Shown piece after piece: positions 50,109 through 52,906 of a stretch of 64,000 nucleotides of DNA. A program made the translations under genes and the position numbers. This DNA is from Castellaniella sp. MT123. GTDB lineage: Bacteria; Pseudomonadota; Gammaproteobacteria; Burkholderiales; Burkholderiaceae_B. The notes below the pieces were generated by a model that saw nothing but the letters and a program-made list of their open reading frames with translations, did not search any database and was not told where the DNA came from. Within the stretch, counting starts at the first letter, position 1. The number at the start of each line of letters is the position of its first letter. Location: NCBI RefSeq assembly GCF_039614765.1, contig NZ_CP154879.1, positions 1,488,001-1,552,000 on the forward strand. The letters run 5' to 3'.

Positions 50109-50459
50109 ATGGATACAACACCCATGTACCCCCATGCCACTGCCGAACTGGCCAAACGCCGGGCGGAACTCGCACCGGAACCGCTGGCCGCCTTCAAGGC
50201 ATTCAGCAAGGCAGTCTTCGCACCCGGCGCCCTCGACACCAAGACCAAGCAACTCATCGCCGTCGCCGTCGCCCACGTCACCCAGTGCCCGTATTGCATC
50301 AAAGGCCACGCAGAAGGGGCCTCGCGCGCGGGCGCGACGGATGCCGAAATCATGGAGGCCATCTGGGTCGCGGCGGAAATGCGGGCGGGCGGCGCATACG
50401 CGCACTCCAATCTGGCACTGCAGGCACTCGAAGGCCTGCACGGGCACTCGCACGCATAG
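50109..50459 (+). CDS. AhpD/carboxymuconolactone decarboxylase-family protein
   Basis: A 116-residue AhpD-like protein with the redox motif CPYCIKGH near residue 59 (C-x2-C-x3-H), preceded by LDTKTKQLIAVAVAHVTQ. The two cysteines and the histidine match alkylhydroperoxidase-type members rather than true decarboxylases. CACAGGAG precedes the ATG. It lies 140 bases before the ECF sigma factor gene and could belong to the same stress response, but the shared promoter motif is not found upstream of it. Confidence 0.85.
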   Translation: MDTTPMYPHATAELAKRRAELAPEPLAAFKAFSKAVFAPGALDTKTKQLIAVAVAHVTQCPYCIKGHAEGASRAGATDAEIMEAIWVAAEMRAGGAYAHSNLALQALEGLHGHSHA

Positions 50460-50541
50460 TCGTCCGCATGAGGGCCGCGGGCCGGGCACGCGACACCGCC
50501 GAATGCCCGCCCGCGGGACGGGACACCTCCGGCGACAGCCG

Positions 50542-50574
50542 GTGAAACGTTTCCCGGGGTACCGTCATCCAATG
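50542..50574 (+). promoter_or_regulatory. ECF-type promoter of the sigma factor gene
   Basis: GTGAAACG (50542-50549), 16 bases, CATCCAATG (50566-50574). The same two elements with the same spacing occur on the minus strand at 52402-52434; 25 of the 33 positions agree. The ATG at 50572 lies inside the -10 element, which argues against it as the start codon and for GTG 50599. Confidence 0.7.
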
Positions 50575-50598
50575 GCACCACCGGAATTAGGAGACGAT

Positions 50599-51330
50599 GT
50601 GGACACCCAGATTCAACACGACTTCGCAAAGGCCGACGATCTCTCGCTGATCGCCTATTGCAGGGCCGGCCACCTGGCCGCCTTCGACATCCTGATGCGC
50701 CGGCACAACCAGCAGCTCTACCGCGCGGCCCGCAGCATCCTGCACGATGAAGCCGAGGCCGAGGATGCCGTGCAGGATGCCTGGTGGAAAGCCTTCCAGC
50801 ATCTTGGCGACTTCCGGGCTGATGCCCAACCGGCGACCTGGCTGACCCGCATCACCGTCAACGAGGCCCTGATGCGCCGTCGACGAAACAAATCGCGCGA
50901 AGCTCACATCCAATCGGCATACCAGGCTTCCAACGAGCAGGACCGCATGCTTCCTCCCGGCTCCAATGTCCCCGCCCCCGACACGGCGCGCCCAGACCAA
51001 TCGGCTTGGCGTGCGGAACTGCGGCAGCGAATCGAGCAGCACATCGACGCGCTGCCCGACATCTACCGGACCGTGTTCATGTTGCGCGGGGTCGAGGAAA
51101 TGCCGGCCGCCGAGGTCGCCCAGGTGCTGGGCATGCCCGAGGCGACCGTGCGGGTGCGTTTCATGCGGGCACGCCACCTGCTGCAGACCGCCATGCGGCA
51201 GGAATTCGATCCAAAGGCCGCTGGCGCCTTTTCATTCGCGGGCGAGCGCTGCGACCGGATCGTGGCCGGCGTGCACGTGCGGATGCGCGCAGCGGGACTC
51301 CTGCCGGGCCCGACGGACAACACACACTGA
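50599..51330 (+). CDS. ECF-type RNA polymerase sigma factor
   Basis: A 243-residue group 4 sigma factor. Region 2 runs from LIAYCRAGHLAAFDILMRRH to EDAVQDAWWKAFQHLGDFRA and TWLTRITVNEALMRRR. A linker of about 40 residues follows, then region 4 (DALPDIYRTVFMLRGVEEMP, AAEVAQVLGMPEATVRVRFM). A conserved C-terminal tail (FSFAGERCDRIVAGVHVRMR) goes beyond the usual end. GTG 50599 with AGGAG five bases before it is preferred, because the upstream ATG falls in the predicted promoter. No anti-sigma gene is adjacent, so control may rely on the tail or on a distant partner. Probable targets are itself and the operon at 52359. Confidence 0.9.
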   Translation: MDTQIQHDFAKADDLSLIAYCRAGHLAAFDILMRRHNQQLYRAARSILHDEAEAEDAVQDAWWKAFQHLGDFRADAQPATWLTRITVNEALMRRRRNKSREAHIQSAYQASNEQDRMLPPGSNVPAPDTARPDQSAWRAELRQRIEQHIDALPDIYRTVFMLRGVEEMPAAEVAQVLGMPEATVRVRFMRARHLLQTAMRQEFDPKAAGAFSFAGERCDRIVAGVHVRMRAAGLLPGPTDNTH

Positions 51331-51404
51331 AAGGCCCGTCCCACCCAGGAGGTGAAATGGGCCCTTCAGGCCGCGCCAGGCGATGAGTCCCGGCCAGGTT
51401 GGGG

Positions 51405-51929
51405 TCAATCGACGTGACCGGTCTTCAAGATGTCGGCCACCGTGGGAAAGTTCGCCAGGGCCACGGCGGGCAGTTTGGTATCGGTCGCCGCATAAGGCTC
51501 GACACCAGCCGGCGCCTCGCCCACGATGATCCGCCCGACCATCCCCGCCATCTCGTGCGGGATGCAGAAATAGTCATAGACACCGGGCACATCCAGCACC
51601 GTCGCAAAGGACTGATCAGGCAGCAGATAGCCGGAATTCCAGGGGGTGGCCGCAGCGGGAATCCGCAGGGGCTTGCCGTTGTCGGGATGATAGGCGGTCG
51701 TCGTGTGCGCACTGCCCGCCTGCCGGTTCACCCAGCGCACTGTCTGTCCAGGCCGGATCAGCAGCCCCCGGGGCCGGAACCAGACGCGGGCACCATCCGG
51801 CGTCCCGGACATCTCGATGACCACCTCGTCAGCGGCACCGGCCCGCCGGATCAGGGCTGCCGTCAGCAACAGTCCGCCACCGGACGCCAGCAGGCGCCGC
51901 CGTCCCGGATTGAAGGGGATGGTGTTCAT
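51405..51929 (-). CDS. Plastocyanin/azurin-like cupredoxin
   Basis: A 174-residue exported blue-copper-type protein. The N terminus RRRLLASGGGLLLTAALI looks like a Tat- or Sec-type signal (twin Arg within RRR). The copper ligands are the His in GSAHTTTAY and the Cys, His and Met in DYFCIPHEMAGM, the usual cupredoxin set. It starts one base after the stop of the TTHB210-like gene and so is in the same operon. Residues 135-174 extend past the copper site. It may shuttle electrons or bind copper in the periplasm. Confidence 0.85.
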   Translation of the reverse strand: MNTIPFNPGRRRLLASGGGLLLTAALIRRAGAADEVVIEMSGTPDGARVWFRPRGLLIRPGQTVRWVNRQAGSAHTTTAYHPDNGKPLRIPAAATPWNSGYLLPDQSFATVLDVPGVYDYFCIPHEMAGMVGRIIVGEAPAGVEPYAATDTKLPAVALANFPTVADILKTGHVD

Positions 51930-51930
51930 A

Positions 51931-52359
51931 TCATTTGGCCACGCGGCTTTCCCCGGACACCGGTACATTCCACAGGACGATGTGGATATGCGGCTCTTCA
52001 ACGCCCGGGTGACCGGCGTTGTACTGGATGTCCACGTGATCGACCTTGCCGGCCGGCGCCTTCAGATCCTGCAAGTTCATACCCGCCTTCATCTGCGAGA
52101 TCGGAATCATGTAGGTGGTGGTGACCAGATGGCCTTTGTGGTCATAACCCAGAAACGGCCCTGCCGGGATGGTCGACGGGTCAACGAACAACTGCCCCAG
52201 GCCAGGAATGAAGCTGGGCAGCTTGACCAGGGAACTGACGGCCTTGTAGGGGGCGGCGGGCGGCGCCTTCATCACTGAAGTCTGTGCGGCCAGCGCACCG
52301 GCGGAACCCACGGAAAGCACCAAGGCGGCGGCGGCCGCCATCAACATTGAACGTTTCAT
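51931..52359 (-). CDS. TTHB210-like (DUF5602) exported protein
   Basis: A 142-residue protein with a Sec signal peptide (MLMAAAAALVLSVGSAGALA). The mature part has SLVKLPSFIPGLGQLFVDP and GKVDHVDIQYNAGHPGVEEP followed by HIHIVLW. I recognise this pattern as the TTHB210-like family, whose Thermus thermophilus founder is controlled by an ECF sigma factor; the assignment is by memory of the family and not by search. GGGAG precedes ATG 52359. The His-rich EPHIHIVLW segment could bind metal. It is the first gene of the pair controlled by the ECF-type promoter at 52402-52434. Confidence 0.65.
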   Translation of the reverse strand: MKRSMLMAAAAALVLSVGSAGALAAQTSVMKAPPAAPYKAVSSLVKLPSFIPGLGQLFVDPSTIPAGPFLGYDHKGHLVTTTYMIPISQMKAGMNLQDLKAPAGKVDHVDIQYNAGHPGVEEPHIHIVLWNVPVSGESRVAK

Positions 52360-52401
52360 CTGAATCTCCCGAAGCACGCAGCGAAAATCGCTGGTTTCGT
52401 G

Positions 52402-52434
52402 CATTGGATGCGGACATCCCGGAAGCCGTTTCAC
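52402..52434 (-). promoter_or_regulatory. ECF-type promoter of the TTHB210-like/cupredoxin operon
   Basis: Read on the minus strand: GTGAAACG (52434-52427), 16 bases, CATCCAATG (52410-52402). Both elements are identical to those before the sigma factor gene. The leader to ATG 52359 would be about 35 bases. Confidence 0.7.
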
Positions 52435-52540
52435 GATCGTTGCCGTGTCCGGGCACGAGACTTCATCTTCCAGTATGAAGCTTCAATGAAACAGGACGCC
52501 ATGCTACGATCCCAGGCATTGTCAACCACCCCGATCCCCC

Positions 52541-52906
52541 ATGACAGACACGTCCACGCCTTACCACGCCAACGCAGCCGACAACCTGCGCTCGGCCCGC
52601 AATCTGGCCCTGGTGGTCTATGCCCTGCAGGTTGCCGGATTCTTTCTGGGCGGCGTCCCCTCTGTGATCGGTGTGATCATCAATTACGTCAAGCGCGGCG
52701 ACGTCCAGGGCACCTGGGTGGAATCGCATTTCCGCTGGCAGATCCGCACCTTCTGGTTCGGCCTGTTGTGGGGGGTGATCGGCGCCATCCTGGTGTTCGC
52801 CTATGTCGGTGTCGTCATCCTGGCGGTCAACACCGTCTGGATCATCTACCGGATCGTGAAGGGCTGGCTGCGTCTGAACGACAACCAGCCCATGTACCAG
52901 AACTGA
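52541..52906 (+). CDS. DUF4870-like small membrane protein
   Basis: A 121-residue protein with three hydrophobic segments (LALVVYALQVAGFFLG, FGLLWGVIGAILVFAYVG, VVILAVNTVWIIYRIV) separated by the short polar loop NYVKRGDVQGTWVESHFRWQ. The loop resembles the DUF4870/Tic20-like family (VKRxxA/G-x-W-x-ESHFRWQ). No function can be given. It diverges from the TTHB210-like operon. Confidence 0.75.
   Translation: MTDTSTPYHANAADNLRSARNLALVVYALQVAGFFLGGVPSVIGVIINYVKRGDVQGTWVESHFRWQIRTFWFGLLWGVIGAILVFAYVGVVILAVNTVWIIYRIVKGWLRLNDNQPMYQN

Follow-up and report, generated by a model that had tools for sequence, protein, structure and literature searches.

A tailed orphan ECF sigma factor with a conserved promoter motif and a predicted TTHB210-like/cupredoxin regulon in Castellaniella

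Most extracytoplasmic function (ECF) sigma factors are understood via their anti-sigma factors. Here we describe a locus that appears to be wired otherwise, found in a 64,000-nucleotide (nt) stretch of Castellaniella sp. MT123 (NZ_CP154879.1, positions 1,488,001 to 1,552,000; hereafter the window, whose own numbering is used throughout). An ECF sigma factor gene (50599..51330, plus strand) converges with a two-gene operon on the minus strand encoding an exported TTHB210-like (DUF5602) protein (51931..52359) and a cupredoxin (51405..51929). We propose, with a probability of roughly 0.87, that these genes constitute a self-amplifying orphan regulon in which the sigma factor drives its own gene and the exported TTHB210-like/cupredoxin operon, with no adjacent anti-sigma gene. 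Comparison across genomes shows a shared promoter-like motif, its co-occurrence with the sigma factor, a conserved gene set, a conserved C-terminal tail and no recognisable anti-sigma gene next door. Judged by these comparisons, the sigma factor is a member of a PRK11922-type orphan lineage with an F-x-G-x-R-C tail, for which one predicted promoter type serves several exported or membrane-protein modules in Beta- and Alphaproteobacteria.

The two predicted promoters carry the motif GTGAAACG-N16-CATCCAATG. One copy (50542..50574, plus strand) has its -10 end 24 nt before the GTG start of the sigma gene, and the other (minus strand, read from 52434 to 52402) has its -10 end 42 nt ahead of the TTHB210-like start codon (ATG, 52359). 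The window holds these two exact matches, and 100 dinucleotide-preserving shuffles gave none. The initial annotation of this DNA had proposed a genome scan for the motif; in the 3,366,678 bases of this Castellaniella genome the scan returned two exact matches, both at the sigma locus, and none with the reversed control. That annotation had also reported identical elements, equal spacing and 25 of 33 matching bases, and was correct in each respect as well as in position and strand. The 33-mers agree at all 17 element bases and at 8 of 16 spacer bases, and their flanks share 6 of 20 upstream and 2 of 20 downstream bases. The two sites look as independent promoters of one sigma factor would look, rather than as a recent duplication. 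The architecture is ECF-like (AAC in the -35, spacing 16-17, a CATC-type -10), and an AAC-bearing -35 before its own gene would be expected of an autoregulated ECF factor. No sigma-70 promoter that might act as an alternative driver was found in 50450-52550. Comparison with related loci, given below, strongly supports the promoter step.

Relaxing the pattern did not extend the regulon within this genome. Up to three mismatches gave six places against two control matches, and a separate pattern with up to two mismatches gave eight places against 18 reversed-control matches; a wider regulon was rejected on these counts. Since the looser matches are not clearly above chance, we claim no target beyond the two perfect sites. 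One three-mismatch place (G000:C1:3212426) was discarded as a target, having no convincing gene behind it.

The arrangement recurs in related bacteria. A single protein query returned 35 named loci, the closest being from a Castellaniella (L023) whose TTHB210-like protein is 100% identical. For 31 of the 35, the fetched stretch includes a sigma factor of the same family (it is cut in L026 and broken in L055), and a cupredoxin is present in 33. The sigma gene comes third, 5-74 nt behind the cupredoxin gene, in every one of the 19 sigma-bearing named loci from Alphaproteobacteria, so that the three form one apparent operon; the four named Castellaniella loci with a sigma gene (L023, L027, L030, L033) have it in the convergent orientation seen in the window. 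In 31 of the 35 loci, the 200 nt upstream of the TTHB210-like gene contain the motif in the form (G/A)AAC-N16/17-CATC(C/T)AATG with at most one -10 mismatch, and in 19 of these the -10 is exact. By the same test, 8 of 7332 control windows taken from these loci matched, as did 2 of 3500 shuffled upstream sequences. Betaproteobacteria mostly have TGAAAC or similar with a spacing of 17, and Alphaproteobacteria mostly GGGAAC with a spacing of 16. Lack of conservation in homologous loci had been named beforehand as an outcome that would overturn the reading; the motif proved to be conserved in two classes of Proteobacteria, including before many related sigma genes.

Genome-wide scans place the motif mostly in genomes that carry the sigma factor or its proposed targets. 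Among 101 genomes of the family, 17 of the 20 with a TTHB210-like gene also have the sigma factor. In this set TGAAACR-N16-CATCYAATG matched 12 times in 10 genomes (reversed control, 0), and these were 10 of the 20 TTHB210-positive genomes versus 0 of the 81 negative ones. The pattern GRAACG-N16-CATCYAATG matched 26 times in 21 genomes, with two control matches; it was present in 20 of 38 sigma-positive versus 1 of 63 sigma-negative genomes, and 23 of the 26 matches have a sigma or TTHB210-like gene no more than 1.5 kb downstream on the same strand. In an alphaproteobacterial order the motif was found in 5 of 150 genomes (control, 0), all five among the 11 that are sigma-positive. Within the genus, a slightly wider pattern gave 28 matches in 10 genomes against one control match.

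Two sets of loci serve as natural experiments. Castellaniella G631 has its closest sigma gene and its TTHB210-like operon on separate contigs. The sigma gene, on C1, converges with a motif-bearing DUF2231 operon; the TTHB210-like operon, on C57, retains the motif, which argues that the motif is not merely a linked duplication. Among 16 plasmid loci, the motif (at most one mismatch) is present in all seven with the sigma factor and in none of the nine without it. Six of these nine, all rhizobial plasmids (L137, L138, L146, L147, L148, L151), have a histidine kinase gene after the cupredoxin gene, in the place of the sigma gene; the kinase was assigned by Pfam (HisKA and HATPase_c) in L138 and by tblastn in the other five. 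These operons seem to have been rewired to another regulator with the same targets. The six plasmids also share another conserved element, a GAAAT...ATTTC dyad about 100-150 nt upstream of the TTHB210-like gene. A Microvirga plasmid (L141) holds three motif-like copies with at most one mismatch, at 1426, 2471 and 4909; they precede the TTHB210-like gene, a glycosylhydrolase gene located behind the cupredoxin gene, and the sigma gene. In a Thioclava locus (L150, 4351-5262), a short cupredoxin match behind the TTHB210-like gene ends at an IS6 transposase gene, and neither sigma factor nor motif was found in its 8.3 kb.

Related sigma factors without a TTHB210-like gene keep the motif before the sigma gene or before genes for other exported or membrane proteins. 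It accompanies a Ferritin_2 module in L117, L118, L122, L123 and L128, a DUF2231 module in L063, L110 and L192, DUF4142 in L112 and DUF4142-cupredoxin genes in further loci. One member of each was confirmed by Pfam (L117 Ferritin_2, 1.2e-35; L063 DUF2231, 3.8e-24; L112 DUF4142, 3.4e-39), the remaining members being named by tblastn or reading. The self-contained regulon of the initial annotation holds at high stringency for this genome; in relatives, Ferritin_2, DUF4142 and DUF2231 genes have the motif as well. We rejected a simple scheme in which each sigma clade has its own gene module: on the sigma tree, four context labels require 15 changes (shuffled mean, 26.7). These labels come partly from short loci (flanks of about 1.5 kb) and differ within two sets of identical rows. 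Exchange of modules among sigma factors is suggested. In another Castellaniella genome, a motif copy (L185; G088:C37:176776-176806, minus strand) lies some 33 nt ahead of the point where a DUF1775 gene, presumably of the YcnI type, probably starts; a CopC-domain gene follows that gene. This copy could be a copper-related target or a chance match; the control at that stringency gave one chance match, and the TTHB210-like gene of the same genome (L015) has no motif at one mismatch.

The identities first assigned to the operon products were confirmed. The TTHB210-like protein is homologous to TTHB210 (PDB 3vg8; phmmer E 1.6e-22, Foldseek 5e-8), scoring 25.5 bits against PF18197 (DUF5602) in one scan, below the cut-off of 26.6, and 27.5 bits, above it, in another. 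It has an apparent Sec signal, and His108, His117, His124 and His126 are invariant in 22 aligned proteins, all four being kept in the Thermus protein. The PDB and Pfam entries label TTHB210 a "hypothetical protein". The cupredoxin is plastocyanin/pseudoazurin-like (PF00127, 1.6e-9) with a twin-arginine-type N-terminus; the type-1 copper ligand positions His75, Cys122, His125 and Met130 and the twin-arginine pair are invariant in 21 of 21 aligned sequences, marking it as a plastocyanin-type, putative type-1 copper protein. Both alignments are chosen subsets of the 35 named loci, that of the cupredoxin comprising the window and 20 of the 33 loci with the gene. Between the convergent sigma and cupredoxin genes lies a hairpin-forming stretch (51328..51368) without a clear T tract. 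Folding of 51328-51410 gave z -2.16, with 9 of 200 shuffles folding equally well, and a classical terminator was rejected, there being a hairpin only and no terminator match. Read-through past this hairpin would yield antisense RNA.

The sigma factor itself begins at the GTG at 50599, a small correction, since the ATG at 50597 is out of frame. Its 243 residues contain region 2 (Sigma70_r2, PF04542, 8e-16) and region 4 (Sigma70_r4_2, PF08281, 8e-14), both above cut-off, which is the composition of an ECF (group 4) factor, and it aligns with the structures of E. coli sigmaE, SigW and AlgU. It scores 256 bits against the NCBIfam equivalog NF008888/PRK11922 (cut-off 204), a model that all 27 sequences of our sigma alignment match at E 1e-20 or better. 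About 40 residues follow region 4. Here an F-x-G-x-R-C motif is found in 75 of 76 proteobacterial sigma rows (68 distinct sequences), the exception being C-x-G-x-R-C in L141; across the 27 aligned sequences it is invariant, and Cys218 within it is the sole invariant cysteine. The motif leads into a helix (216-231) that is confident in the AlphaFold model. The listed structural alignments stop at about residue 210, and we make no claim of a docking site. From the analogy with orphan ECF factors controlled by C-terminal extensions (ECF41, CorE, OrbS), we infer that the tail, perhaps via Cys218, may help to set sigma activity.

Within the sigma gene lies a third promoter-like site (50885..50915, plus strand; GAAACA-N16-CATCCAATC) of putative function. 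In its own genome it is not outstanding, falling within the two-mismatch scan in which real places were outnumbered by control places. Its conservation is seen at the level of codons. The site is exact in eight of nine Castellaniella genomes with the same-species genome left out, and in nine of ten with it. We put at about even odds the explanation that the site is a by-product of the conserved peptide R-N-K-x-R-x-x-x-I-Q-S and codon bias. Part of the site is dictated by the peptide alone, no exact copy is present in relatives just outside the genus, the -10 variant ending in C entered the consensus after it had been seen, and the genes share descent. Against this explanation, synonymous-codon shuffles of the nine genes gave at most three exact sites of nine in 2000 trials. 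Moreover, in 13 related genes 70 residue columns are invariant, not counting Met and Trp, but the codon is invariant at just two of them, Asn97 (AAC) and Gln105 (CAA). These two codons form the -35 and -10 cores of the site; CAA is the minority Gln codon in the nine genes (27 CAA versus 69 CAG). The nine Castellaniella genes alone have eight invariant codons in 79 columns, four of them inside the site. With at most one mismatch, sense sites occur in 14 of 80 sigma sequences, near-copies of one genome included, and antisense sites in 0 of 80.

In seven of ten genomes the site is followed, 31 nt on, by an in-frame ATG (Met117), preceded by AGGA in five of the seven; Met at this place is also found in relatives without an exact site. 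A hypothetical reading frame from Met117 (50947..51330, plus strand) would encode 127 residues comprising region 4 and the tail. It is conceivable, though we consider it distinctly unlikely, that the Castellaniella sigma factor carries its own brake: the same sigma factor would use the intragenic promoter, and the resulting sigma4 fragment with the F-x-G-x-R-C tail would occupy -35 elements or core RNA polymerase as a built-in anti-sigma. Such a fragment, if real, would complete a negative loop and so stand in for a separate anti-sigma gene.

That no anti-sigma gene neighbours the sigma gene, as had been claimed at the outset, agrees with all three checks made: an HxxxCxxC scan, a survey of co-directional open reading frames (ORFs) and Pfam. 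In the 31 sigma-bearing named loci, the HxxxCxxC scan over up to 3 kb picked out a carboxymuconolactone decarboxylase (CMD) family gene in the four Castellaniella loci and single further ORFs in L032, L041, L051 and L056, and 17 mechanically called ORFs in 13 loci begin on the sigma strand no more than 80 nt past the sigma gene. None of these ORFs matched a Pfam anti-sigma family, an unlinked gene not having been searched for genome-wide; their only Pfam matches are CMD, a beta-lactamase-family ORF and a GntR regulator (L056). The scanned loci appear to depart from the canonical pairing of a sigma gene with an adjacent anti-sigma gene. In the window the CMD gene (50109..50459, plus strand) lies upstream of the sigma gene, as it does in the four named Castellaniella loci with the sigma factor; no motif copy precedes it, and it was rejected as an HxxxCxxC anti-sigma as a member of the CMD family (PF02627, 2.8e-22). 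We treated as chance an RskA_C match (E 0.019) to the TTHB210-like protein.

The sigma factor might nevertheless be restrained by an anti-sigma encoded elsewhere, making this a canonical ECF system whose partner gene has moved away. In favour of this explanation, the TTHB210 gene of Thermus stands beside sigE and an annotated anti-sigma gene. We consider it unlikely, given the neighbourhoods of 31 sigma-bearing loci without an anti-sigma family match and a conserved tail that Thermus SigE lacks. Highly improbable is the alternative that another regulator or a different ECF sigma factor binds the two sites and controls both genes, the sigma gene being merely a target: other factors can control ECF genes, as is supposed of the orphan B. 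japonicum ecfQ and an unknown transcription factor (PMC3420878), and three of the 20 TTHB210-positive family genomes lack a sigma match at E 1e-25, but the motif is ECF-like in architecture, tracks the sigma family across genomes and plasmids, and is kept by related sigma factors with different partner genes.

Several observations weigh against the self-amplifying orphan regulon, the three genomes without a sigma match just mentioned among them. The motif is degenerate, as judged by eye, in four of the 35 named loci (L026, L031, L046, L047), and some Pusillimonas-type loci lack the motif before the sigma gene itself (L028, L029, L031, L032). The motif patterns are specific but incomplete, as many sigma-positive genomes have no exact match (18 of 38 in the family and 6 of 11 in the alphaproteobacterial order). 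Genomes carry other ECF sigma factors, G631 having a second, weaker sigma match, and loci that share a genus or family do not count as independent. The neighbour scan covers recognisable anti-sigma types beside the sigma gene, and an unusual or unlinked type may exist. Finally, the regulon is a prediction from sequence comparison.

The original proposal that the sigma factor drives itself and the operon nevertheless gains support from these comparisons, in which the motif tracks both sigma factor and targets. In the self-amplifying regulon, a signal would raise or free a little sigma factor, the holoenzyme would start at the two promoters, (T)GAAACG-N16-CATCCAATG, and the level of sigma would climb through a positive loop on its own gene. 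The exported His-rich protein and the copper protein would be produced from the convergent operon, and restraint would come from the cysteine-bearing tail or from an upstream signal rather than from an anti-sigma. We infer direct recognition by the sigma factor, the autoregulatory loop, control by tail or upstream signal, and a role in envelope copper or redox stress. Copper or oxidative stress is a plausible signal in view of the gene products and the motif copy before the DUF1775/CopC pair in G088.

Autoregulated ECF sigma factors and orphan tailed ones are known kinds. As far as our searches show, what is new is the conservation of promoter and targets in this tailed orphan lineage, the proteobacterial TTHB210-cupredoxin regulon and the conserved intragenic site; among the matches listed from the openly licensed literature, the text available contained no description of the regulon or of the internal site. 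In two proteobacterial classes the lineage has kept its predicted promoter and exported metal or redox targets together with a compact one-cysteine tail and no recognisable adjacent anti-sigma. How an orphan, self-amplifying sigma factor stays off thereby becomes a testable question in a small two-promoter regulon.

Among known systems, ECF41 shares the orphan features: it has no anti-sigma gene, its activity is tied to a C-terminal extension, and its regulon is very small with a conserved promoter (PMC3426412). A CMD gene neighbour, as described for ECF41 loci, is here seen in Castellaniella. It differs in its large fused C-terminal extension and its promoter, TGTCACA-n16-CGTC (PMC3426412), whereas the present sigma factor has a short tail and the promoter TGAAACG-N16-CATCCAATG; neither a SnoaL-like Pfam match nor the ECF41 promoter was found. 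CorE and CorE2 (ECF238, PMC8999054) and OrbS (ECF243, PMC9023288) are orphan ECF factors whose cysteine-bearing C-terminal region senses metal, CorE controlling copper genes (PMC10141476). Those factors have cysteine clusters, and CorE also a C-x-C in its linker. The present sigma factors, whose one invariant cysteine across the 27 aligned sequences belongs to the tail, do not fit the ECF238 pattern of a cysteine-rich C-terminal domain plus a linker C-x-C. The descriptions available for ECF41, CorE and OrbS (PMC3426412, PMC8999054, PMC9023288) mention no F-x-G-x-R-C-type tail. DUF4142-cupredoxin-sigma operons on Rhizobium and Caballeronia plasmids combine a related sigma factor and the same motif with an exported protein and a cupredoxin, differing in that the exported protein is another one and the cupredoxin is shorter.

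A further parallel is pTT27 of Thermus thermophilus HB8, where an ECF sigma gene adjoins the gene for TTHB210, a true homologue that experiments have reportedly shown to be a target of SigE; a ferritin-like gene is close by. We apply the numbers TTHB210-212 to the genes of this locus. The TTHB210 gene is divergent, beside sigE and its annotated anti-sigma gene (TTHB212; PMC4153023). A TTHB210 homologue adjoining an ECF sigma gene is thus common to both systems; an anti-sigma gene in line with sigE is found in Thermus, and none is recognisable beside the proteobacterial sigma gene. The Thermus locus also gave no cupredoxin match in 8.4 kb and no match to the motif, and SigE, at 187 residues, ends after region 4. 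Its ferritin-like gene (L136, 1936-2556) follows the anti-sigma gene, and a Ferritin_2 gene follows the sigma gene in Alcaligenaceae relatives; the association of ferritin-like and sigma genes may be old. Related targets appear in three wirings, with an anti-sigma and no tail in Thermus, a tail and no anti-sigma seen in Proteobacteria, and a histidine kinase and no motif on rhizobial plasmids, and TTHB210-like proteins acquire a regulatory context in Proteobacteria.

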